Source: Janthinobacterium sp. GW456P
GTDB lineage: Bacteria > Pseudomonadota > Gammaproteobacteria > Burkholderiales > Burkholderiaceae_D
Direction of reading: 5' to 3'
Length of the DNA stretch: 64,000 bases
NCBI RefSeq assembly: GCF_002127655.1
Contig: NZ_NEHB01000008.1
Span: 1-64,000, forward strand
Part shown: piece by piece, positions 34,561 through 47,350 of the stretch
How the letters are laid out: every line of letters begins with the position of its first letter
Position numbering within the stretch: position 1 is the stretch's first letter
Program-made: the position numbers and the translations under genes
The notes under the pieces: model-generated
What the model was told of the DNA's origin: nothing
Seen by the model: the letters and a program-made list of their open reading frames with translations, nothing else
The model's database searches: none

Positions 34561-36588
34561 CTACGACGCCGCCTCGCGCAGCGCCACGCCATCGCGGCCC
34601 TGCCCCTTGGCGGCGTACAGGGCCTGGTCGGCCAGATCGAGCAACTGCGCCGGCGTCAGCGCGCCTTCGCGAAAGATGGCCATGCCGACGCTGGTCGTCA
34701 CCGGCAGCGGGCCGCCGGCCAGCGCAAACGGCTGGCGGATGGCCTCGACGATCTTGGCGCCGACCTGGCGCACTTCGGCCGCGCCGTTCACCCCTTCGAG
34801 AATGATCACGAATTCGTCGCCGGCCAGGCGCGCCACCAGGTCGCTGGCGCGCACGCTGCGCACCAGGCGCGCGGCGAACTCCTTGAGCACCTCGTCCCCC
34901 GCCTTGTGCCCCAGGCTGTCGTTGATGGCCTTGAAACGGTCGATGTCGAGATAGGCCAGCGCCATCGGCGCGCGCGCGGCCCGCGTGCGCTGCATGCTTT
35001 GCGCCAGCTGCTCGTCGAAACGGCGCCGGTTGGCGATGCCCGTCAGGGTGTCGGTGGCGGCGGCAAACTGCAGCGCCGTGTGCATCGCCTTGGTCTTGGT
35101 GATTTCGTGAATCAAGCCATACACGCCTTCCACCGCGCCGCTCTCGCCCACATCGGGCACGTAGCTGGTATGGAAGGCGCGCTGGCCAGCATCTCCGTCA
35201 CCGCCAATGGTGAACTCATACTCAACCTCCTCGCCCGAGAAGGCGCGCAGCAGGTGCTGCTCGCGCAGCTGGTAGGCCTGCTCGCCCAGCACCTCGCGCA
35301 TGGAATGCATCAGGCTCTCCTTGGCCGAGACGCCGAACCATTTTTCAAACGTCGCATTGATGAACTGGTAGCGGTGCTCGCGGTCGATGTAAACGATCAC
35401 CACGGGAACGTGGTCCGTCAGCAGCTTCAAACGCCGCTCGCTGTCGCGCGTCTGCGCCACGGCGATTTCGCGCTCGGCCATCAGCGAGTAAAAATCGCGG
35501 CTCAAGTCGCCGATCTCGTCGCGCCGCTCGATCTGGAGCGCCTCGATGCCCAGGCGCTGGCGGCGGATTTCATGCACATGATGGCGCAGCCGCGCCAAAG
35601 GCAGCAGCAGGCGCAGCACCACGCGCCAGCCGGCCAGCCCCGCCAGCGCCGCCAGCAGCACGGCGGCCAGCAATATCTTGCTGCGGATGGCGTGCAGCGG
35701 CGCGAACGCGTCGCGCATGGGATACACGGACGCCAGTATCCAGCCCGTCGACGCGATGCGGTGGTAGGCAAACAGGGCATCGACGCCCTGCGTGGTGGTA
35801 CCCGACAGCCAGCCCTCGAAACCCTGCAAGGCGCGCCGCGTGGGCACGCTGATGGGGCCATGCGCCTCGATATGCTGCATGATGCGCGACTTGTCGGGAT
35901 GCTCGACGATGACGCCTTCGCCGGTCATGATGTACAGGTAGCCGCCCGTGCCCGGCTTGAGCGCGCCCAGGCGGCCCAGGAAATCGGGCTGGCGCAGGTT
36001 GACGCTGGCCGCCAGCACATAACGCACGGCGCCCTGCGCGTCGAACACGGGCTGCGTCACCACGACGATGGGCATGCCGGAAATGCTGCCGTTGAGGGGT
36101 GCGGAAATCACCGAGCGCCGGGTCGCCAGCGTCTGTTCAAAGTAAGGGCGGCCCTTCACGTTCAGCCCCGCCTGCGGCTTGAAGGGACTCACGCTGGCCA
36201 GCACGGCGCCGTCGATACCGACCACGCCGGCCGAATAAAATTCCTTGCGCAGCACCGTTTGCGCAGCCAGGTAACGCTGCAGGCTGGCGCCGTCGTGCGC
36301 GGCGCCGGCCGGCAGGCTGTCGGCGATGGCGCGCAGCACCTTGCGCTTCGCGTCGAGTTCCTCATCGATGAAGACGGCGGCGCTGGACAGCGAGACGTAC
36401 TGCTGCCGGCCCGTCACGTCGCGCATGCCGCGCTCGGCCACGGACAGGGTGGCCAGCGCCAGCGAGGCCACGGCAGCGAGCACGAGCAGGAAGACGACCA
36501 CGCTCATGCGCGCCTTGAGGCTGGCCGGCAGGCGCCGGCGCAATCGTTTGCGCCAGGTCGTCACGGCCGCTGCCGCAGGTACCGGCAA
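34561..36588 (-). CDS. Diguanylate cyclase with Cache, HAMP and PAS domains
   Basis: About 675 residues. Membrane helices are at about 28-50 and 305-325, flanking a dCache-like periplasmic sensor ([40 protein letters not shown]). A HAMP segment follows, then a PAS domain ([20 protein letters not shown]), and GGDEF at the C terminus. The active motif reads AGDEF ([15 protein letters not shown]), a common variant; RASD five residues before it is an I-site. It overlaps the cysC end. A GTG at 36564 would give a neat GTGA overlap with the cysC stop and is an alternative start. Makes cyclic di-GMP. Confidence 0.9.
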
Positions 36589-37091
36589 ATGCGCTCGACC
36601 GACTCGTCCAGCGCCAGCGCCTGGGTATCGAGCGTCAGGGCGGCGGCCAGCGGCGCTTCATACGGCGCGGAAATGCCTGTGAATTGCGCCAGCTGCCCTG
36701 CCCGCGCCTTTTCATACAGGCCCTTGGGATCGCGCGCCTCGCACACGGCGAGCGGCGTGCTGACGTGGACTTCAATGAAATGCGCCGCGCCGATGATGGC
36801 GGCGGCCATGGCCCGGTCCGCGCGGTAGGGAGAAATGAAGGCGGCGATGACGGTCAAGCCCGCTTCGTTCATCAGGCGCGCCACTTCAGCGACGCGGCGG
36901 ATGTTTTCATGCCGGTCTTGGGGCGTAAAACCCAGGTCGCGGTTCAAGCCATGGCGCAACTGGTCGCCATCGAGCACCGCCACGGGGCGGCCCTGGGCCT
37001 TGAGCTGGCGCGCCAGCGCATCGGCGACGGTGGTCTTGCCGGCGCCGCTCAAGCCCGTCAGCCAGACCGTAGGATGTTGTGCTGCTGTCAT
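36561..37091 (-). CDS. cysC: Adenylylsulfate (APS) kinase
   Basis: A 176-residue P-loop kinase that phosphorylates APS to PAPS. The Walker A motif is GLSGAGKT near residue 14. The APS-kinase motifs [16 protein letters not shown] and FISPYRADR are present, as is [10 protein letters not shown]. The ATG at 37091 is chosen; the preceding GTG is also possible, and GAGAGG lies upstream of both. It sits 62 bases after the nitrate reductase gene without cysD/cysN partners in the window, so its link to the nitrate genes is by position only. Confidence 0.93.
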
Positions 37092-37153
37092 CACACTGCC
37101 TCTCTCTTATAGAGCAGGCAATATAACAAAGCCGTGGCGGAAAGGACAGATTT

Positions 37154-39823
37154 TCAGGCCGCGCTGCGCGCCTCAAGCAGCAACTGTCGTATCTCGGGCA
37201 CGCAGGAGCCGCAATTGCCGCCCGCCTTGAGGCAGGCCGTCACCTGCGCCGCCGTCGTCAGCTTCTGCTCCACGATGGCGGCGCAGATGGTGTTGCGCCC
37301 CACGCCAAAGCACGAGCACACCATGGGACCGGCATCCGCGCCCTGGCCGATGGGCTGACCCAGCAGCACGCCGGCGCGATCAAGCGCCTCCATTTGCGCA
37401 TGCGCAAACAGGCTGGCCAGCCAGCTGCGCGACGGCAGGTCGGGACGGGGCGAGACATACACGCATTGCACGATGCGCCCCTCGTCCAGGTGCACGGCGC
37501 GGTACACGCCGGCGCTGGCATCCGCGTAATCGAGCCAGTCGGCGTTGTCGTCCGTGACGCCGAGCAGCGCGCGCGCCCAGGCGCCGAGATCCTCGATGCG
37601 CTGGCGGCCCGCCAGTTCGTAGCGCAGGAATTGCTCGCCCTGCACGCGCGTCCAGTGCGCCACGCCGTCCAGGTGGAGCGGCGTGCGGCTCAGGACAAAC
37701 GCATGCCAGTGCACGCGGAATTGTTCGATGCGCACAGGCGTGTGCTTGAATTCCGGCTCGCCCGAGACGGGGTCGACGACCGGATTGACGACGGCGCCCA
37801 CGCGCGCGTCGGAGGCATTCGCGTCGCTCCAGTGGATGGGCACGAAGACCTGGCCGCGCGCGATGCCGCCGCCATGCACGACGCGCGCCACCATCGCGCC
37901 CCAGGCGCTGGAAATGCGCGCCAGCTCGCCCTCGCGCACGCTGTACAGCAGCGCGTCCTGCGGGTGGATGTCGATGAACGCTTCGGCGACGTGGCCCGAC
38001 AGTTTCGCCGCCTTGCCCGTGCGCGTCATCGTGTGCCACTGGTCGCGCACCCGGCCCGTGTTCAGGATCAGCGGATAGTCTTCGTCGGGCATGTTGCGCG
38101 GCGCGCGCGGCGCCGTCGGCACGAAGCGCGCGCGCCCGTCCGCATGGGCGAAACGGCCGTCGCCGAACAAACGCGCCTGGCCCTGCGGCCACTGCTGCGG
38201 CACCAGGGCGTCGTACTGCGCCGCGTCCAGGTTGTCCAGGCCCGTCAGATTGAACAGCCGCGCCGTTTCCGCCCCGTTGCGGAAGATCGACAGCCGCGCG
38301 TGTTCGGCAAAAATGGCCTGCGGCGCCGCGAAATCGAAGCCGGCATAACCCATGCGCCGCGCCACATCGCACAGCACGTCCCAGTCGGCGCGCGCCTCGC
38401 CCGGTGCCGGCAAAAAAGCGCGCTGGCGCGAGATGCGCCGCTCCGAGTTCGTCACCGTACCGTCCTTCTCGCCCCAGCCCAGGGCCGGCAGCAGCACGTC
38501 GGCATGGACATTCGTATCCGATTGCGCGCTGATGTCCGACACCACCACCAGCTCGCATCTGGCCAGCGCTCGGCGCACCTGGTCGGCGTCCGGCATGCTG
38601 ACCAGAGGATTGGTGGCGATGATCCACACGGCTTTGACTTTACCCGCCTCGATCGCCTGGAACAGGTCCACCGCCTTCAAGCCCGGTTTGGCGGCGATGC
38701 GGGGAGAGTCCCAGAAGGTTTGCACGGTGTCGCGGTGCAGCGGATTGTCCAGCTCCAGGTGCGCCGCCAGCATATTGGCCAGGCCGCCCACTTCGCGCCC
38801 GCCCATGGCGTTCGGCTGGCCCGTCAACGAAAACGGCCCCATGCCGGGCTGGCCGATGCGCCCCGTCGCCAGATGGCAGTTGATGATGCTGTTGACCTTG
38901 TCCGTGCCGGAGGACGACTGGTTCACGCCCTGCGAAAAGGCCGTGACGACCTGGCGCGTGGCGGCAAACGCCTGGTAAAACGCCAGCAAGGCTTGCGGAT
39001 CGACCTTGCAGATCTTCGCCACCTGCAAGGGGTCGCCGCAGTCCGCGTGCGCGGCCGCCAGCGCCGCGTCGAGGCCGCGGCTGTGATGCGTGACAAAGGC
39101 GTCGTCGATCACGCCCTCCTTCGCCAGATAGCACAGCAAGCCGTTGAACAGCCACACGTCGGTACCCGGTTTCACGGGCAAATGCAGGTCGGCCAGCTCG
39201 CAGGTGGCCGTGCGGCGCGGGTCGATCACCACCAGCTTCATCTGCGGCCGTGTTTCGCGGAGGCGGGCGATGCGCTGGAACAGGATGGGGTGGCACCAGG
39301 CCGTGTTCGAGCCCACCAGCACGACCATGTCGGCCAGCTCCAGGTCTTCATAACAGCCGGGCACGATGTCTTCGCCGAACGCGCGCTTGTGGCCGGCGAC
39401 GGCCGAAGACATGCACAGGCGCGAATTGGTGTCGATGTTCGCGCTGCCCACGTAGCCCTTCATGAATTTGTTGGCGATGTAATAGTCTTCCGTCAGCAGC
39501 TGGCCCGAGACGTACAGGGCGACGGCGTCGGGCCCGTGCTCGGCTATGATGGCGCGCAGGCCGCCGGCCACCTGGTCCAGCGCGGTATCCCAGGAAGCGC
39601 GCCGCAGCGCGCCATCGGTGCGCACCTGCGGGTAGAGCAGGCGCTGGTCAAGGTCCAAGGTGTCGCCCAGGGCCGAACCTTTCACGCACAGGCGGCCCAG
39701 GTTGGCCGGGTGCGTTGCATCGCCGGCGATGCGGATGGCGCCGTCGGGCAGGCGTGTCGCTTCCACGCCGCAGCCGACGCCGCAGTAGGGGCAAGTGGTT
39801 TTCACTGACGTGCAGCTGGTCAT
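37154..39823 (-). CDS. nasA: Assimilatory nitrate reductase, catalytic subunit
   Basis: An 889-residue molybdopterin enzyme that reduces nitrate to nitrite in the cytoplasm. The N-terminal [4Fe-4S] ligands are in TCPYCGVGCGVEA with a fourth Cys in LGRLCVKG. The molybdopterin-binding core includes YVGSANIDTNSRLCMSSAVA and HPILFQRIARLRE. A C-terminal BFD-like [2Fe-2S] domain (MVCSCFGVGRNTICAAIVEQ, GGNCGSCVPEI) is the extension found in NasA of assimilatory systems. The start is ATG 39823 with AGGA upstream. It lies downstream of the FAD electron-transfer gene in the nitrate operon. Confidence 0.94.
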   Translation of the reverse strand: MTSCTSVKTTCPYCGVGCGVEATRLPDGAIRIAGDATHPANLGRLCVKGSALGDTLDLDQRLLYPQVRTDGALRRASWDTALDQVAGGLRAIIAEHGPDAVALYVSGQLLTEDYYIANKFMKGYVGSANIDTNSRLCMSSAVAGHKRAFGEDIVPGCYEDLELADMVVLVGSNTAWCHPILFQRIARLRETRPQMKLVVIDPRRTATCELADLHLPVKPGTDVWLFNGLLCYLAKEGVIDDAFVTHHSRGLDAALAAAHADCGDPLQVAKICKVDPQALLAFYQAFAATRQVVTAFSQGVNQSSSGTDKVNSIINCHLATGRIGQPGMGPFSLTGQPNAMGGREVGGLANMLAAHLELDNPLHRDTVQTFWDSPRIAAKPGLKAVDLFQAIEAGKVKAVWIIATNPLVSMPDADQVRRALARCELVVVSDISAQSDTNVHADVLLPALGWGEKDGTVTNSERRISRQRAFLPAPGEARADWDVLCDVARRMGYAGFDFAAPQAIFAEHARLSIFRNGAETARLFNLTGLDNLDAAQYDALVPQQWPQGQARLFGDGRFAHADGRARFVPTAPRAPRNMPDEDYPLILNTGRVRDQWHTMTRTGKAAKLSGHVAEAFIDIHPQDALLYSVREGELARISSAWGAMVARVVHGGGIARGQVFVPIHWSDANASDARVGAVVNPVVDPVSGEPEFKHTPVRIEQFRVHWHAFVLSRTPLHLDGVAHWTRVQGEQFLRYELAGRQRIEDLGAWARALLGVTDDNADWLDYADASAGVYRAVHLDEGRIVQCVYVSPRPDLPSRSWLASLFAHAQMEALDRAGVLLGQPIGQGADAGPMVCSCFGVGRNTICAAIVEQKLTTAAQVTACLKAGGNCGSCVPEIRQLLLEARSAA

Positions 39824-39845
39824 GGGCGTATCCTGTTGGTCGCTG

Positions 39846-41072
39846 TCAGGCGGCCTGGGCGCACAGCGCCTGGCCAAACAATAAATGGGTACGCAGCTGG
39901 CTGATGTCGCGGCGCTGCTGGATCAGGTCGAAATACCAGGGGCCGTCCTGCACGTCGCCATACAGCACGGCGCCGGCCAGGCGGCTGCCCTGCACCACCA
40001 GGCGCTTGTAGACGCCACGCCTCGGATCGCGCAGCACCAGGTCTTCGCTGCCCTCGCCGCCGAGGATGTCGCCGGCCGAATACAGGTCGATGCCCGTCAC
40101 TTTCAATTTCGTCGCGCTGGCTTGCTGCACGTAGCGGCGGTGTCCGGCGCCGGCCAGATGCGCGCCGCACACGCGCGCCTGCTCCCAGATGGGCGCGACC
40201 AGGCCGAAGGTGGCGCGCCGGTGCTGCACGCATTCGCCCACCGCGTACACGCGCGGGTCGTAGCTTTGCAGGCAGTCGTCGACGACGATGGCCCGTTCGC
40301 AGTGCAGACCGGCCGCTTGCGCCAGCGCGATGTTCGGGCGCACGCCGGCCGTCATCACCACCAGGTCGGCGGGGATCGAGCTACCATCGGCAAAGCGAAC
40401 GCCCTGCACGCGGCCGGTGCCGAGGATTTCCGCCGTTTGCGCCTGCATCAAAAACCGCAGGCCGCGCGCTTCCAGCGCCGATTTCAGCAGCATCGATGCG
40501 GGCGCGTCCAGCTGCTGGTTCATCAGCGCGCCGCTCATGTGCACCACCGTCACATCCATGCCCTGGCGCTGCAGGCCGTTGGCCGCTTCCAGCCCCAGCA
40601 AGCCGCCGCCGATGACGACCGCGTGGCGGTGCTGGCGCGCCGCCCGCAGCATGGTGTCGACATCGTCGATATCGCGAAAACCGATCACGCCGGGCAGCTC
40701 ATGGCCCGGCACGGGCACGATGAAGGGCGTGGAACCCGTGGCCAGCAGCAGGCGGTCATAACGCACCTCGATGCCCGACAGCGCCTGCACGGTGCGCGTC
40801 TGGCGGTCGATGCGCACGACGGGGTCGCCCGCGTGCAGGGTGATGCCGTTGTGCGCATACCAGTCGCGCGTATGCAGCATGATGTCGTCCACCGTCTTTT
40901 CGCCGGCCAGCACAGGAGACAGCAGGATGCGGTTGTAATTGCCGTGCGGCTCGGCGCCGAACACGGTGATGTCGTACAGGTCCGGCGCGAGTTTCAGCAA
41001 TTCCTCGACCGTGCGCATGCCGGCCATGCCGTTGCCAACGACAACCAGCGAGAGACGCCGGGCCCGGTTCAT
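39846..41072 (-). CDS. nasC: FAD/NAD-dependent electron-transfer protein for nitrate reductase (NasC-like)
   Basis: A 408-residue pyridine nucleotide-disulfide-type oxidoreductase that resembles the N-terminal half of NirB. The FAD motif is LVVVGNGMAGMRTVEELLKL, the NAD motif HAVVIGGGLLGLEAANGLQR, and DPRVYAVGECVQHRRATFGL lies near 285. In Klebsiella-type nas operons such a protein (NasC) passes electrons from NADH to NasA, and its position between nirD and nasA fits. The start overlaps the nirD stop by ATGA. No Fe-S domain is present, unlike larger NasC forms. Confidence 0.85.
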   Translation of the reverse strand: MNRARRLSLVVVGNGMAGMRTVEELLKLAPDLYDITVFGAEPHGNYNRILLSPVLAGEKTVDDIMLHTRDWYAHNGITLHAGDPVVRIDRQTRTVQALSGIEVRYDRLLLATGSTPFIVPVPGHELPGVIGFRDIDDVDTMLRAARQHRHAVVIGGGLLGLEAANGLQRQGMDVTVVHMSGALMNQQLDAPASMLLKSALEARGLRFLMQAQTAEILGTGRVQGVRFADGSSIPADLVVMTAGVRPNIALAQAAGLHCERAIVVDDCLQSYDPRVYAVGECVQHRRATFGLVAPIWEQARVCGAHLAGAGHRRYVQQASATKLKVTGIDLYSAGDILGGEGSEDLVLRDPRRGVYKRLVVQGSRLAGAVLYGDVQDGPWYFDLIQQRRDISQLRTHLLFGQALCAQAA

Positions 41073-41431
41073 ATGGCCACCCAGACCTGGCCGTCGGCCA
41101 CGCGCGCAGGCCACGTGTCCACCGAGTGTTCGGGCGCTTCGATGCATTCGCCGCTGGCCAGGTCGAAATGCTGCTTGTAGATGGGCGAGGCGACGACGAC
41201 GCGCTCGCCGATGCTGCCGACCAGCCCGCGCGACAGCACGGAAGCGCCCGCGTTCGGGTCGACATTGTCGATGGCGTACACGCGCGGCGCGGCATCGCCG
41301 ACGCGGAACACGGCCACGTGGCGGCCGCCCAGCAGCGCGCACACGCCCGTGTCCGGCACGATATCCGTCAAGGGGCAGATCGCCACCCAGTTATCGGCGA
41401 GGGCGCTGTTCAATTCATTCATCGCATTCAT
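41069..41431 (-). CDS. nirD: Nitrite reductase (NADH) small subunit
   Basis: A 120-residue Rieske-like protein (NADNVDPNAGASVLSRGLVG-type region; VVASPIYKQHFDLASGECIE). As usual for NirD, the Rieske iron ligands are not conserved. It pairs with NirB for siroheme-dependent nitrite reduction to ammonium. It starts three bases after the nirB stop and ends in an ATGA overlap with the next gene, so it is tightly coupled on both sides. A second in-frame ATG lies at 41422. Confidence 0.93.
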   Translation of the reverse strand: MNAMNELNSALADNWVAICPLTDIVPDTGVCALLGGRHVAVFRVGDAAPRVYAIDNVDPNAGASVLSRGLVGSIGERVVVASPIYKQHFDLASGECIEAPEHSVDTWPARVADGQVWVAI

Positions 41432-41434
41432 GGC

Positions 41435-43987
41435 TCACGCCTCCACGGCAAGGATGGGGATCACGGTGCTGCGGCGTTCCAGCTCGGTGGCGGGCCGGAT
41501 CTGGCCCCGCTCTTCGACGAACACCACGTTTTCATCGTTCTTTTCGCTGTTGACGAAATGGCGGAAGCGCTGGCGCACGGCGGGATCGGTGACGGCCGTT
41601 TTCCACTCGCAGGCATAGGTGTCGACCACGTGCTGCATGTCCGCTTCCAGTTCCGCCGCCAGGCCCAGGCTGTCGTCGATGATGACGCGCTTGAGATAAT
41701 CGAGGCCCCCTTCCAGGTTGTCGCGCCACACGCTGGTGCGCTGGAGGCGGTCGGCCGTGCGCACGTAAAACATCAAAAAGCGGTCGACATAGCGCACCAG
41801 CGTGGCTTCATCAAGATCGGAGGCGATCAGTTCCGCATGGCGCGGCTTCATGCCGCCATTGCCGCACACGTACAGATTCCAGCCCTTTTCCGTGGCGATC
41901 AGGCCGATGTCCTTGCCCTGCGCCTCGGCGCATTCGCGCGTGCAGCCGGAGACGCCGAACTTGATCTTGTGCGGCGTGCGCAAGCCCTTGTAGCGGTTTT
42001 CCAGCTGGATCGCAAAGCCCACGCTGTCGGCCACGCCGTAGCGGCACCAGGTGGAACCGACGCACGATTTCACCGTGCGCAAGGATTTTCCGTAGGCGTG
42101 GCCCGACTCGAAGCCGGCCGCGATCAGTTCTTCCCAGATGGCCGGCAACTGGTCCACGCGCGCGCCGAACAGGTCGACCCGCTGGCCGCCCGTGATTTTG
42201 GTATATAAACCGTATTTTTTCGCCACCATGCCCACGGCGATCAAGCCGTCGGCCGTCACTTCGCCACCGGGCATGCGCGGCACCACCGAGTACGTGCCAT
42301 CCTTCTGGATATTGCCAAGGAAGTAGTCGTTGCTGTCCTGCAGGCTGGCGTGCACGGGCGACAGCACGAAATCGTTCCAGCAAGACGCCAGGATATTCGC
42401 CGCCACGGGCTTGCACACGTCGCAGCCGAGGCCCTGGCCATGCGCGGACAGCAGTGCGCCGAAGCTGCGGATTTTGCCGACGCGCACCAGGTGGTGCAGT
42501 TCCTGGCGCGAGTAGGCAAAGTGTTCGCACACATGATTATTCACGGCCAGGCCCTGCTTCTGCATTTCCGCCTTCATGATCTGCGTCACCAGCGGCACGC
42601 AGCCGCCGCACGCCGTCCCCGCGCACGTAGCACTTTTCAGGGCGCCGATGCTGGTGGCGCCACCGGCAACGGCCGCGCACAGCGCGCCTTTCGAGACGTC
42701 GTTGCACGAGCAGATTTGCGCTGACTCGGGCAAGGCGTCGACGCCCAGTCCCGCCTTGTGCTGGCCATCGGCCTGCGGCAGGATCAGGAATTCGGGCGAT
42801 GCCGGCAGCTCGATTTTATTCAGCATCATCTGCAAGAGCGTGCCGTATTCGCTGGCGTCGCCCACCATCACGCCGCCCAGCAGGTATTTGCCGCAATCGG
42901 ACACGACGATCTTCTTGTAGATCTGCTTGCGTTCATCCATGAACTGGTAGGAGCGGCTGCCCGGCGCATGGCCGTGCGGGTCGCCCAGGCTGGCCACGTC
43001 CACGCCCATCAGTTTGAGCTTGGTGCTCATGTCGGCGCCCTTGAACGCGGCTTCGCCCTCCTCCTGCAGCAGGTGGCGCGCCGCGATGCGCGCCATTTCA
43101 TAGCCGGGCGCCACCAGGCCGAAGACCAGGCCGCCCCACAGCGCGCATTCGCCGATCGCGTAGATGTCCGGGTCGGAGGTGACGCAGCGGTCGTCGATGG
43201 CGATGCCGCCGCGCGGCCCCACCTCCAGGCCGCAGGCGCGCGCCAGTTCGTCGCGCGGGCGGATGCCGGCCGAGAAGACGATCATGTCCGCTTCCAGGTG
43301 GCTGCCGTCGGCGAACTGCATGCGGTGCGTGGCAGATTCGCCGTCAACGATGGCCAGCGTATTTTTTTGCGTGTGCACGGTCACGCCCAGTTCCTCGATC
43401 TTGCGGCGCAGCACGCGCGCGCCGCCTTCATCGACCTGCACGGCCATCAGGCGCGGCGCGAATTCCACCACGTGGGTATCAAGTTTCAGGTCGCGCAAGG
43501 CTTTCGCGCATTCGAGGCCCAGCAATCCCCCGCCGATCACCACGCCCGTTTTGGATTGACTGCCCCAGGCCAGCATGGCTTCCAGGTCTTCGATGGTGCG
43601 GTAGACGAAGCAGCCATCCCTCTCCTTGCCCGGCAGCGGCGGCACGAAGGGCGTCGAGCCGGTGGCAAACACGAGTTTGTCGTACATCAAGACTTCGCCC
43701 GTGCTGGCGGTGACGGTTTTCGCCGCGCGGTCGATGGCCACGGCGCGCGCATTGAGCTTCAACACGACGTTGCCCTTGTCGAAGAAGCCGGGCGCCACCA
43801 GCGACAGGTCCTCGGCCGATTTGCCGCTGAAAAATTCGGACAGGTGCACCCTGTCGTAGGCGGGGCGCGGCTCTTCGCACAAGACCGTCACGGACAAGTG
43901 CGGCGCGTTGTCCAGGGCCAGGCGTTCGAGGAATTTGTGTCCGACCATGCCATGGCCCAGGACGACGATCTTCAGGGGGTGATTCAT
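41435..43987 (-). CDS. nirB: Nitrite reductase (NADH) large subunit
   Basis: An 850-residue cytoplasmic enzyme that reduces nitrite to ammonium with NADH. The order is FAD motif (IVVLGHGMVGHKFLERLAL), NAD motif (TGVVIGGGLLGLECAKALRD), a BFD [2Fe-2S] domain (ICSCNDVSKGALCAAVAGG, ACGGCVPL), and the siroheme/[4Fe-4S] half with the CX5C (SCVGSTWC) and CX3C (GCTREC) cysteine pairs. Length is normal. GAGGAGAG lies before the ATG. It follows the transporter gene by 10 bases. Confidence 0.97.
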   Translation of the reverse strand: MNHPLKIVVLGHGMVGHKFLERLALDNAPHLSVTVLCEEPRPAYDRVHLSEFFSGKSAEDLSLVAPGFFDKGNVVLKLNARAVAIDRAAKTVTASTGEVLMYDKLVFATGSTPFVPPLPGKERDGCFVYRTIEDLEAMLAWGSQSKTGVVIGGGLLGLECAKALRDLKLDTHVVEFAPRLMAVQVDEGGARVLRRKIEELGVTVHTQKNTLAIVDGESATHRMQFADGSHLEADMIVFSAGIRPRDELARACGLEVGPRGGIAIDDRCVTSDPDIYAIGECALWGGLVFGLVAPGYEMARIAARHLLQEEGEAAFKGADMSTKLKLMGVDVASLGDPHGHAPGSRSYQFMDERKQIYKKIVVSDCGKYLLGGVMVGDASEYGTLLQMMLNKIELPASPEFLILPQADGQHKAGLGVDALPESAQICSCNDVSKGALCAAVAGGATSIGALKSATCAGTACGGCVPLVTQIMKAEMQKQGLAVNNHVCEHFAYSRQELHHLVRVGKIRSFGALLSAHGQGLGCDVCKPVAANILASCWNDFVLSPVHASLQDSNDYFLGNIQKDGTYSVVPRMPGGEVTADGLIAVGMVAKKYGLYTKITGGQRVDLFGARVDQLPAIWEELIAAGFESGHAYGKSLRTVKSCVGSTWCRYGVADSVGFAIQLENRYKGLRTPHKIKFGVSGCTRECAEAQGKDIGLIATEKGWNLYVCGNGGMKPRHAELIASDLDEATLVRYVDRFLMFYVRTADRLQRTSVWRDNLEGGLDYLKRVIIDDSLGLAAELEADMQHVVDTYACEWKTAVTDPAVRQRFRHFVNSEKNDENVVFVEERGQIRPATELERRSTVIPILAVEA

Positions 43988-43997
43988 CTTGCTCTCC

Positions 43998-45305
43998 TCA
44001 GGCCGCGGCCATGTTCGGTTCGGCCGCTACACGGGTAAAGCGCACGGCGATGGCGCACAGGGCCGAGACCACCACCAGCGCGCTCAGGATGATCAGGGTC
44101 TGGCGGATGTCGCCCGTGCCCTTCATCAGGAAGCCGGCCGCCACGGCGCCCACGTTGCCGCCAGCGCCGATGATGCCGGCCACGCCGCCGAGGGCGCGGC
44201 TGTCGATGAAGGGCACCAGCGCGTAGGTGGCGCCGCAGGCCATGTGGGTGAACAGGCCAAAGACCAGCATGGCGATGACGGCATAGGTGACGCTGTCGAC
44301 CTTGGCAAACCACAGCAAGCCCACGCCTTCGCCGATCATCAGCATGAACAGCAGGGTCACGCGGCTATTCAGGTTGCCGCGCAGCGCCAGCTTGTCGGAC
44401 AGCCAGCCGCCCAAGGCACGGGCGAACAGGGCCAGCAAGCCGAAGCTGCCGGCGGCCAGGCCGGCCGATTTCAAGGACAGGCCGAAATGGTCGACGTAGT
44501 AGACGGCGGCGATGTTGTGGATGAAAATTTCGATGCCGAAGCAGGCGCCGTAGGTGACGAACAGCAGCCACACGCGGTAGTTGGAACTGGCCGCCTTGAA
44601 GCTGGCCCAGCCGCCGCTTTTGCCGCCGCCCTTGCCCCCTTCGATGGCGCTGCCGGCGGCGCGCAAGTCCGAGTAGTTCCCTTCCGGACAATCCTGCGTA
44701 TAACGCCAGTACAGGGCCGCCATCACCAGCATCAAGACGCCCGGCACCAGCAGCGCCACGCGCCAGCCCAGCGATTCGGACACGCCCAGCATCAGCACGG
44801 CGCCGAGCAGCAAGGGCATCAGCGCCTGCGCCGCGCCGCCGCCCGCATTGCCCCAGCCGGCAGCGGCCGCATTGGCCGTGCCGACGACACGCGGGGCGAA
44901 CATCACGGAGGTGTGATATTGCGTGATGACAAAGCTGGCACCGACGGCGCCGATGCCCAGGCGGAAGAACAGGAAACTTTCATAGCTTTGCGAGGCGGCC
45001 ACGCCCAGCACGGGGATGGCGCCCAGCAGCAGCAAGCCCGTGTAGGTCTTGCGCGGGCCGTAGCGGTCGCACAAGGGTCCGACGATCAGGCGCACGAGGA
45101 TGGTGATGGCAACGGCCGCGATATTGATGTTCGCCACTTGCGCCAGGGACAGGCCAAACTCGCCCTTGATGACCGGCATCAGCGGCGCGCAGGCGAACCA
45201 GGCGAAGAAACACACGAAAAATGCCATCCACGTCAGGTGGAATGCCCGCATGGGCGGCGTGGCGAGGGAGAAGAGCGCGATGCGCGTTGCTTTTTGGCTG
45301 GCCAT
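43998..45305 (-). CDS. narK: Nitrate/nitrite transporter, MFS (NarK/NasA type)
   Basis: A 435-residue 12-helix MFS protein of the NNP family. Typical blocks are MAFFVCFFAWFACAPLMPVI near the N terminus, the MFS loop VGPLCDRYGPRKTY, and the nitrate signatures AAAAGWGNAGGGAAQALMP and GIIGAGGNVGAVAAGFLMKG. It brings nitrate in for assimilation and may also export nitrite. The start is ATG 45305, just after a leader with a regulated terminator. First gene of narK-nirB-nirD-nasC-nasA, all within a few bases of one another. It could equally be named nasA-type by other nomenclatures. Confidence 0.93.
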   Translation of the reverse strand: MASQKATRIALFSLATPPMRAFHLTWMAFFVCFFAWFACAPLMPVIKGEFGLSLAQVANINIAAVAITILVRLIVGPLCDRYGPRKTYTGLLLLGAIPVLGVAASQSYESFLFFRLGIGAVGASFVITQYHTSVMFAPRVVGTANAAAAGWGNAGGGAAQALMPLLLGAVLMLGVSESLGWRVALLVPGVLMLVMAALYWRYTQDCPEGNYSDLRAAGSAIEGGKGGGKSGGWASFKAASSNYRVWLLFVTYGACFGIEIFIHNIAAVYYVDHFGLSLKSAGLAAGSFGLLALFARALGGWLSDKLALRGNLNSRVTLLFMLMIGEGVGLLWFAKVDSVTYAVIAMLVFGLFTHMACGATYALVPFIDSRALGGVAGIIGAGGNVGAVAAGFLMKGTGDIRQTLIILSALVVVSALCAIAVRFTRVAAEPNMAAA

Positions 45306-45330: not shown

Positions 45331-45413
45331 ATAAAACAAAACGGCGCCCGCACCCGCCGATGAAAAAATCAGCCAGAGCGGACGCCGTTGTCCAGGTGGT
45401 CCGTCGTTGGACC
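45331..45413 (-). promoter_or_regulatory. ANTAR-type (NasT/NasR) antitermination leader with intrinsic terminator
   Basis: Read leftwards, the leader has hairpin P1, GGTCC-AACGAC-GGACC (45398-45413), a 4-base linker, then hairpin P2, GGAC-AACGGC-GTCC (45380-45393). Both loops are hexanucleotides with A at position 1 and G at position 4, the defining feature of RNA targets of ANTAR proteins. P2 overlaps the 5' arm of a 12-bp terminator stem (AACGGCGTCCGC, 45378-45389, with its partner at 45340-45351, one G-U pair), followed by TTGTTTTAT. P2 and the terminator are therefore mutually exclusive. The narK ATG is 26 bases past the end. No ANTAR protein gene is in the window. Confidence 0.87.
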
Positions 45414-45461
45414 GTTGTTAAGTTTATTCAAGGGATCGCCGTTGATCCGTACCGTCTGTTT

Positions 45462-45478
45462 AGCAAGCGCCGTGCCAG
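45462..45478 (-). promoter_or_regulatory. Sigma-54 promoter of the nitrate operon
   Basis: Minus strand reads CTGGCACGGCGCTTGCT, matching YTGGCACGRNNNTTGCW at every defined position, with the GG and GC doublets correctly spaced. The expected start (about 45450) gives a leader of about 145 bases that contains the ANTAR hairpins and terminator. Confidence 0.92.
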
Positions 45479-45628: not shown

Positions 45629-47350
45629 ATGTTCGGGCAACTGCGGCAATGGCAGCCACGGCGCGGCTTGGCGCGCGCGCTGGCATGCGTCTGCGTGGGT
45701 GCGCTCTTGATCGCCTGGAGTAACACTGCCGCAGCGCAAGATGAGTCTCCCGAACCCAAGGAGCACAGCGAGCTGGACGCCACTGTCTTCGCTCCCTTCC
45801 ACGCGGCGCGCGGCGAGCGGCTCACGCAGGCGCGCACATTTGTCGTGTGGCTCAGCTACCCGGACGAAGGCCGCCCGCATGCCGTGCGCTGGACCTTGAC
45901 CTTGTCCGGTCCCGGCCCGCAAGGCGCCGTGCTGCGGCGCTGGTCGGGCCTGGAACAGGTGGGCGCCGGCGGCAAGAGCGTCAACTTGCCCTGGGATGGC
46001 CGCGCCGACGCCGATGCGCGCGAACGGCGCATGCTGGCGCCGGACGGCTTATACCAGCTGCGCCTGCTGGCCGCGGCCGAGACCGGCACGCCGCGCGAGG
46101 CGCAGGTGGAACAGCAATGGCAAATCGCGGTGCAGCGGGGCGCCAGCACGGCGCCCAGGGTGCGCGCCTTCGAGGCCGGCCTGCGACAACTTCAAAGCCT
46201 GGAAGGCCAGTCCGGCTACCGCATCGTCTACGCCAACCTGCACAGCCAGACGCGCCACAGCGACGGCGGCGCGGCGCTTGACGCCTGCCATGGCGCGCAA
46301 GACCCGCAAACGGCGCCGTTCGGCCCCATCGATGCCTATAAGTATGCGCAGGAGCACGGCCTGGACGCCCTGCTGACATCCGAGCACAACCATATGTATG
46401 ACGGTTCGGACGGAACAAACCCCGCAGCCACGCCTGCCGAAGCGAAGGCCTTGTACCAGACGGGGCTGGCCGAAGCGGCCGCCTATACAAACGCCCACCC
46501 CGGTTTCCTTGCCCTGTACGGCATGGAATGGGGCGTCATCAACAAGGGCGGCCACCTGAACATCTTCAATAGCGACCAATTGCTGGGCTGGGAAAGGAAT
46601 GCCCGGGGCGAATTGCTGGCCGACCTGGAAACGCCGAAAAGCGACTACGCCGCCCTGTATGCGCTGATGCGCGAACGGGGCTGGATCGGCCAGTTCAACC
46701 ACCCTGCCTATGCGGGCCAGTTTCTCGTCGATGGCCAGCCGCTCGGCTATACGCAGGATGGCGACGCGGCCATGGTGCTGTGCGAAGTGATGAATACGTC
46801 CGCGTTTTCCACCAACGACCAGGAAACGGAAACGCGGCGCAGCAATTACGAGGCGGCCTGCAACCGTGCCCTGGCGGCCGGCTACCATGTGGCCTTCAGC
46901 AGCAACCAGGACAACCACTGCGCCAACTGGGGCGCGGCCTACGGCAACCGCACGGCCGTGCTGGTGGCCAGCCCAGCCGCCGGCATGCCCCAGCCCCTGT
47001 CACGCGACAGCTTCCTCGAAGCGCTGCGCGCGCGCCGCGTGTTTGCCACCATGGACAAGCACGCGCAGCTGCTGTTCACGGCCAATGGCAAGCTGATGGG
47101 CGAACGTTTCGACAACCACGGGCCTTTGCAACTATCCACCAGTTTCAGCAACAGCGCGGGCCGGCAAGCTGCCGCCATCGCCATCTTCCACGGCGTGCCC
47201 GGCGGCAACGGCTCCGTCACCCCCATATCGGACCAGGCCGAGCTCATTGTCACGCCCGCGCCCGGCCCCCATGTCTATTACGCGCGCCTGACGCAGGACG
47301 ACGGCAACATCGTCTGGTCGGCGCCCGTGTGGGTCAATCAGCTGCCGTGA
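45629..47350 (+). CDS. Exported PHP-type (CehA/McbA-like) metallohydrolase domain protein
   Basis: A 573-residue exported protein with a signal peptide (ALACVCVGALLIAWSNTAAAQ). After an N-terminal beta-rich segment, a PHP-like metal site runs from about residue 200: RIVYANLHSQTRHSDGG, ALLTSEHNHMYDG, LALYGMEWG, GQFNHPAYAG and SSNQDNHCANWG. These supply the His/Asp/Glu ligands of the fold. A C-terminal beta-sandwich tail follows. Similar proteins are annotated as CehA/McbA-type hydrolases (some cleave carbaryl) but the real substrate is unknown. GGAGG lies before the ATG. It is divergent from the nitrate operon; the link is probably only positional. Confidence 0.82.
   Translation: MFGQLRQWQPRRGLARALACVCVGALLIAWSNTAAAQDESPEPKEHSELDATVFAPFHAARGERLTQARTFVVWLSYPDEGRPHAVRWTLTLSGPGPQGAVLRRWSGLEQVGAGGKSVNLPWDGRADADARERRMLAPDGLYQLRLLAAAETGTPREAQVEQQWQIAVQRGASTAPRVRAFEAGLRQLQSLEGQSGYRIVYANLHSQTRHSDGGAALDACHGAQDPQTAPFGPIDAYKYAQEHGLDALLTSEHNHMYDGSDGTNPAATPAEAKALYQTGLAEAAAYTNAHPGFLALYGMEWGVINKGGHLNIFNSDQLLGWERNARGELLADLETPKSDYAALYALMRERGWIGQFNHPAYAGQFLVDGQPLGYTQDGDAAMVLCEVMNTSAFSTNDQETETRRSNYEAACNRALAAGYHVAFSSNQDNHCANWGAAYGNRTAVLVASPAAGMPQPLSRDSFLEALRARRVFATMDKHAQLLFTANGKLMGERFDNHGPLQLSTSFSNSAGRQAAAIAIFHGVPGGNGSVTPISDQAELIVTPAPGPHVYYARLTQDDGNIVWSAPVWVNQLP

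Follow-up and report, generated by a model that had tools for sequence, protein, structure and literature searches.

In Bradyrhizobium, NasT acts on a leader RNA (PMC6759348), and in Paracoccus a leader hairpin is required for growth on nitrate (PMC5424462); these and the other PMC-numbered sources are cited here from excerpts. The NasS-NasT leaders of Paracoccus denitrificans nasA and Bradyrhizobium nosR, and by prediction that of nirA, pair the ANTAR protein NasT and its sensor NasS with leader hairpins and a terminator located before nitrogen-oxide genes. In the excerpted text on Paracoccus, two leader hairpins (HI and HII) are described (PMC5424462). The narK gene of Bradyrhizobium has predicted NasT hairpins, yet it was up-regulated in a nasT mutant (PMC6759348), so the presence of NasT hairpins in a leader does not necessarily imply simple positive control. 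The Klebsiella nasF leader combines nitrate-controlled ANTAR antitermination with Ntr control (PMC5424462) through the one-protein NIT-ANTAR sensor NasR, which is treated in PMC7496416, and ANTAR RNAs of actinobacteria are covered in PMC8164766. The Enterococcus eut target of EutV carries hexaloops with A at loop position 1 and G at position 4 (A1/G4), the second of which (P2) lies within the 5′ arm of the terminator (PMC3369931, PMC8934654). A EutV dimer binds a single hexaloop at any moment, the first hairpin recruiting it and the last one causing antitermination (PMC8934654, PMC3369931), and the structural work proposes that the dimer moves from the recruitment hairpin to the antiterminator hairpin (PMC8934654). 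The natural linkers of EutV targets measure 5–12 nt, linkers of 3 or 14 nt impaired the response (PMC3369931), and a linker 20 nt longer abolished the effect (PMC8934654, PMC3369931). In addition, EutX sequesters EutV (PMC8934654).

We examined the window, a stretch of 64,000 nt from Janthinobacterium sp. GW456P, in which a leader precedes narK on the minus strand. This narK leader very probably mediates nitrate-responsive antitermination by an ANTAR protein (NasT) in a nitrate assimilation operon. Judging from its sequence, it appears to be a NasT leader of the known type but a triple-hexaloop variant, with a conserved first hairpin (P0) and a likeness to the Rfam narK RNA. Such triple-hexaloop leaders are common to many related bacteria. 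Like the known NasS-NasT leaders, the locus has leader hairpins and a terminator before nitrogen-oxide genes, whereas it has three hexaloops instead of the two hairpins described for Paracoccus, a sigma-54-type promoter abuts P0, and nasTS is unlinked to the leader in the window's genome. It shares with the EutV target the A1/G4 hexaloops and the position of P2 in the terminator 5′ arm, but the sensor and the operon are different, and the hexaloops number three against two. Unlike EutV, which has a receiver domain, NasT of the window's genome matches only the ANTAR domain in Pfam. The P1–P2 linker of 4 nt falls between the impairing 3 nt and the natural 5–12 nt of EutV targets in the excerpts of PMC3369931. 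The Klebsiella nasF leader resembles the locus in its nitrate-controlled antitermination and Ntr control, while the window's genome has NasS-NasT in place of NasR. The activity and start of the promoter, the binding of NasT, the response to nitrate and the order of binding are what we infer for the window from these comparisons.

Architecture and folding of the narK leader

Read 5′ to 3′ on the minus strand, the leader consists of a sigma-54-type element, P0, P1, P2, the terminator with its U tract, and the ATG of narK (Table 1). The preliminary description had read this region as an ANTAR leader from two adjacent A1/G4 hairpins with the loops AACGAC and AACGGC. The sequence confirms both hairpins, as P1 and P2, and the ANTAR reading is supported, but there are three hexaloops rather than two; P0 and the sigma-54-type promoter had been missed. 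It had also placed the bases of the second hairpin in the 5′ arm of a 12-bp terminator just before narK, which is correct for the loop and the 3′ arm of P2 but not for its 5′ arm (GGAC), which lies outside the 12-bp stem.

Table 1. Features of the narK leader and the following operon, in window coordinates
Feature	Position	Strand	Basis
Sigma-54-type promoter TGGCACG-N4-TTGCT (-24 GG, -12 GC)	45462..45477	-	sequence TGGCACGGCGCTTGCT; GGCAC-N5-TTGC motif
Hexaloop hairpin P0, GGATC-AACGGC-GATCC	45433..45448	-	sequence and conservation
Hexaloop hairpin P1, GGTCC-AACGAC-GGACC	45398..45413	-	sequence and conservation
Hexaloop hairpin P2, GGAC-AACGGC-GTCC, the antiterminator hairpin	45380..45393	-	sequence and conservation
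Intrinsic terminator hairpin, 12-bp stem (45389-45378 with 45351-45340)	45340..45389	-	folding and conservation
U tract of the terminator, TTTTGTTTTAT	45331..45341	-	sequence
narK, nitrate/nitrite MFS transporter, 435 aa from ATG (45305)	43998..45305	-	TIGR00886 298.7 bits, just below the cut-off of 311.7
nirB, nitrite reductase large subunit	41435..43987	-	profile matches
nirD, nitrite reductase small subunit	41069..41431	-	profile matches
NirB-N-terminus-like FAD/NADH oxidoreductase	39846..41084, start approximate	-	TIGR02374 positions 1-399 of 794
nasA-type nitrate reductase with C-terminal BFD-like [2Fe-2S] domain	37154..39877	-	profile matches

Minus-strand folding, which the preliminary description had suggested as a check, gave a minimum free energy (MFE) of -55.8 kcal/mol for the leader RNA (z -6.2), and none of 200 shuffles was equally low. 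The energies of the single hairpins were -35.9 kcal/mol for the terminator, -5.3 for P0, -7.3 for P1 and -4.0 for P2. With ViennaRNA energies, the fold made of P0, P1 and the terminator reached -37.6 kcal/mol against -20.7 kcal/mol for P0, P1 and P2, a gap of 16.9 kcal/mol that was computed with the inner pairs of the terminator omitted. Since the fold with the terminator is more stable by this amount, transcription is predicted to terminate by default. Once the terminator has formed in this prediction, P0 and P1 are still folded and lie outside it. The MFE structure also contained a long helix between the 5′ and 3′ parts of the leader (AUCCCUUGA with UCAACGGGAU), which is probably incidental as judged by eye on the alignment of related leaders (A1, below).

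The frequency of such hairpins was evaluated in shuffled leaders and in the window by counting A1/G4 hexaloop hairpins with a stem of at least 4 bp and an energy of -3 kcal/mol or better. Among 5000 dinucleotide shuffles of the leader, three such hairpins occurred in none, two in 3 and one in 157, and the narK leader was the only 75-nt span with three of them on either strand of the window. No Rfam family matched the window at the gathering score. The permissive Rfam matches other than narK (ctRNA, P11, mir-1909, SR6 and sR19) looked like chance matches.

The sigma-54 promoter consensus is GGCAC-N5-TTGC, and this element was present in 69 of 72 aligned leaders, or in 71 of 72 in a relaxed form. 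Placed at the usual distance from the promoter, the predicted transcription start (ca. 45451) lies about three bases 5′ of P0, and the 5′ end of the transcript is probably where P0 is located. No clear NtrC site was found upstream of the leader, the best match in the window being 9 of 13 positions of the consensus. Against a composition-shuffle mean of 8.0, the best matches in the 72 rows were 10 (43 rows), 9 (26 rows), 11 (2 rows) and 8 (1 row).

All five genes after the leader that the preliminary description had placed under its control were recovered on the same strand, namely narK, nirB, nirD, the FAD oxidoreductase gene and the nasA-type reductase gene. The closest relatives of NarK were from Janthinobacterium. 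The oxidoreductase encoded between nirD and nasA is, from its sequence, probably an electron donor or electron-transfer subunit of the nitrate reductase. For the nasA-type reductase, none of the NCBIfam models among the 25 matches listed reached its cut-off, and the exact name used here is a presumptive one. An adenylyl-sulfate kinase gene (36561-37094, minus strand; PF01583, 216.8 bits) lies 59 bp after nasA on the same strand; this sulfate assimilation gene thus stands at the end of the nitrate operon and is perhaps co-transcribed with it. Upstream of the leader, a divergent gene (45629-47350, plus strand) codes for a metallohydrolase of the CehA/McbA type (NF038032, 85.8 bits; cut-off 80), for which Pfam gave no match.

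Conservation and covariation among related leaders

The window was aligned with 71 of the 80 loci obtained by a search for NarK relatives (alignment A1, 72 rows). Two loci at contig ends (L021 and L056) were left out, as were seven from outside Oxalobacteraceae without an A1/G4 P1 (L062, L063, L066, L068, L070, L076 and L079). A smaller alignment (A2) kept 45 of the 72 rows after redundant rows, L061 and L040 had been dropped. Loop positions A1 and G4 were invariant in P0 (71 of 71 rows, one row being without P0), in P2 (72 of 72) and in P1 (72 of 72), although the figure for P1 covers the rows retained and would be lowered by the seven excluded leaders. The P1 loop occurred in 13 different sequences, with A at position 2 in 69 of 72 rows and with variation at positions 3, 5 and 6 (C 35, T 15, G 12 and A 10 at position 6). 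This variability apart from A1 and G4 is the pattern expected if mainly these two positions matter. In the P2 loop, A1, A2, G4, G5 and C6 were invariant in all 72 rows.

Across the stems of P0, P1 and P2, 95.5% of the cells were paired in the 72 rows. Both sides had changed in 8 of 17 pairs (shuffle mean 4.7, reached by 2 of 500 shuffles) and in 51 cells (shuffle mean 17.7, reached by none of 500), but the aligned leaders are kin and the shuffle figures therefore overstate independence. The P0 stem covaries, with 3 of 5 pairs changed on both sides and 100% of the cells paired. The P1 stem covaries as well (5 of 8 pairs changed on both sides, 90.6% of the cells paired), the column pairs 140-153 and 141-152 showing 20 and 16 double changes. 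This stem has 5 bp in the window and ten near relatives and 7–8 pairs in the other 61 rows, and its outer three pairs were open in 12 to 21 of the 72 rows. In contrast, none of the 4 pairs of the nearly invariant P2 stem covaried, which is what one would expect where the letters of P2 double as letters of the terminator. Covariation, which the preliminary description had asked of P1 and P2, was thus seen in P1, and also in P0, but not in P2. In the terminator, 93.4% of the cells were paired and three pairs were double-changed (reached by 2 of 500 shuffles), while its third pair was open in 50 of 72 rows. The linker between P1 and P2 measured 4–12 nt in the 72 rows when counted from the 5-bp core of P1, and that between P0 and P2 34–60 nt in 71 rows.

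Distribution of the leader and of NasT-NasS

Related genomes were searched with a covariance model of P0-P1-P2 (R1), which favours three hairpins, and with a model of P2 and the terminator only (R2), built from 59 sequences (alignment A3, 59 of 70 located stretches). Since some of the training leaders of R2 had come from searches with R1 and with the Rfam narK family (RF03032), R2 is not fully independent of them. The same leader was found with R1 in each of the 12 further genomes searched from the genus of the window, and R2 matched 132 of 399 genomes of the order at E values up to 0.01. The 90 places examined in the R2 survey comprised nearly all of those with the best scores, and P2 was located in 89 of them (all but L293). 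The hexaloop hairpins upstream of P2 were of the A1/G4 type in 120 of 202 cases, the next commonest type occurring 10 times. At least one upstream A1/G4 hexaloop was present in 81 of the 89 leaders, at least two in 38 and none in eight, compared with 5.5% (at least one) and 0.2% (at least two) in composition shuffles; one hexaloop call in one sequence can arise by chance. The leaders with two or more came from 14 of the 25 families and 23 of the 50 genera seen. No paper on an ANTAR leader with three hexaloops was seen among those listed in literature searches, which does not establish that the triple form is absent from the literature.

The best Rfam match of the window's leader was RF03032 (23.5 bits), below the gathering score of 43.2. 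This family matched 34 of 300 genomes of the order at E values up to 0.001, and in 3 of the 34 the score exceeded the gathering threshold. In the 30 RF03032 loci examined, A1/G4 hexaloop hairpins numbered two or more in 23 loci, one in five and zero in two; a sigma-54-type element (relaxed pattern) was present at the start of 25 and a U tract in 27. The RF03032 consensus starts with GGCAC-N5-UUGCU and contains hexaloops of the types AACGG and AAAGAC, while its Rfam structure line, unlike the window, pairs the first hairpin only and has no middle hairpin. From these features, the RF03032 matches in the order appear to be leaders of this type too, namely a sigma-54 promoter followed by an ANTAR leader. 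The source study of RF03032 is reportedly Weinberg 2017; literature searches for a paper on RF03032 or the narK RNA motif found none. The first 15 or so positions of the family seem to include a DNA promoter element, sigma-54 -24/-12 (matches L083-L112).

The window's genome has two ANTAR proteins (L001 and L002), in agreement with the preliminary description, which had expected one. L001 is a protein of 217 aa (PF03861, 73.3 bits) followed by an NMT1-type protein of 392 aa (PF13379, 304.2 bits), and by these profile matches the two are a NasT-NasS pair, in which NasS would bind nitrate. The pair lies on contig C5 and the window on contig C77; the expectation of an unlinked NasT/NasS or NasR was borne out for NasT-NasS, whereas no NasR was seen, neither of the two ANTAR proteins having a matched sensor domain beyond a receiver. 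L002 (1090-1722, contig C29) is a REC-ANTAR protein with a receiver domain, and its neighbour is a gene which we take to be thiamine-phosphate-synthase-like. The binder of the leader would be NasT and not the REC-ANTAR protein.

An ANTAR match was present in 151 of 195 genomes of the window's family. Leaders matching R1 at E < 1e-4 gave 99 rows in 98 genomes (120 genomes match at E up to 0.1), and an ANTAR gene was present in 97 of these 98 genomes among the ANTAR matches listed (Fisher p 6e-15 for co-occurrence, with the kinship of the genomes ignored). The single leader-positive genome without an ANTAR match (G298) was retained in the count; in the stretch examined, its leader match (L179) lacks a U tract downstream of P2 and is probably due to chance. 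Among the ANTAR matches listed, which extended to E 2.1e-17, 56 of the 99 rows had an ANTAR gene on their contig no more than 10 kb away, in every case on the strand of the leader and in 53 cases upstream, whereas 43 rows, including that of the window, had no ANTAR gene within this distance. In L122, nasT ends ca. 110 bp before the narK promoter. The narK leader was the single significant target in the window's genome in both the R1 and R2 searches. The next best R1 match reached 18.0 bits (E 0.23), and the next best R2 match (19.4 bits, E 0.15) was the antisense of the terminator of the narK leader itself. A wider regulon was not found in this genome with R1 and R2, models tuned to the narK leader.

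Proposed mechanism and alternatives

The proposed regulation of the narK operon is as follows. Transcription would start at the sigma-54-type promoter directly before P0, under nitrogen-limitation control, and by default the nascent RNA would fold the 12-bp terminator, so that transcription stops before narK. By analogy with Paracoccus and Bradyrhizobium, as described in the excerpts of PMC5424462 and PMC6759348, NasS may sense nitrate or nitrite and NasT would then be released. NasT would land on the hexaloop hairpins as they emerge, on P0 and then on P1, and would finally keep P2 folded; the terminator then could not form and narK-nirB-nirD-reductase-nasA would be read. In such a relay, NasT would be recruited on P0, step to P1 and be handed to P2 next to the polymerase. 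As P0 and P2 are 34–60 nt apart and P1 lies 4–12 nt before P2, P1 could hand NasT from P0 to P2. The combined proposal that three hexaloops are common in the ANTAR leaders of the order, that the upstream two form a relay and that the Rfam narK RNA belongs to the same class is tentative, although a real possibility.

It is rather unlikely that the functional dual hexaloop consists of P1 and P2, with P0 as just a common hairpin that stabilises the 5′ end, or as an inert vestige. The P1–P2 spacing, counted from the 5-bp core of P1, is indeed closest to that of the known dual motif, and one aligned leader (L061) and three fetched ones (L164, L165 and L176) carry P1 and P2 without P0. However, the P0 loop kept A1 and G4 in every row that has P0 and its stem covaries, and this loop rule is unexpected of an inert hairpin; moreover, the Burkholderia/Paraburkholderia leaders L062, L063, L076 and L079 retain P0 and P2 and show no A1/G4 P1. 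If the latter leaders work, the relay is not needed everywhere. A role of P1 in spacing or compaction, as a hairpin joining P0 to P2 with a hexaloop unneeded for binding, is in our view unlikely. The leaders with one upstream hexaloop in the R2 survey had it near P2 in 21 cases and far from P2 in 22 (of 89 leaders), and in 15 of these 22, but not in the other 7, the fold of the gap is more stable than the shuffle mean by 2 kcal/mol or more, often as a hairpin with another loop (loops judged by eye). The Cupriavidus leaders L066 and L070, which are without an A1/G4 P1, likewise have a CUUC-loop hairpin at the place of P1 (by eye). A spacer would need neither A1 nor G4, yet both are constant in P1 of the 72 aligned leaders amid variable positions.

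The predicted terminated form leaves a complete hexaloop pair, P0 and P1, free outside the terminator, and the terminated leader RNA of about 120 nt could therefore act as a decoy that titrates NasT, a role for which the sequestration of EutV by EutX is a precedent in the excerpted PMC8934654. Titration from a single promoter would probably be weak, and we regard this explanation as improbable. Least probable by far is that the leader is just a terminator separating divergent genes, or that it attenuates with no ANTAR protein involved, the hexaloops being coincidental: the terminator is strong on its own, but the shuffles, the invariance of the loops, the covariation and the linkage to nasT already disfavour it and argue for the NasT antitermination leader.

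If the relay from P0 through P1 to P2 holds, it would lengthen the distance and the time over which antitermination works. The family of three-hexaloop leaders, together with the natural leaders without P0 or without an A1/G4 P1, makes the stepwise model of the EutV type directly testable. The leader also offers a function for the Rfam narK RNA and a marker of nitrate regulation in the order.

Two further leaders (L183 and L191, in G313 and G354) have the P2 loop ACAGGC instead of AAxGGC and one A1/G4 hexaloop upstream, and no sigma-54-type element was seen in them by eye. These two leaders perhaps represent another class of ANTAR targets.
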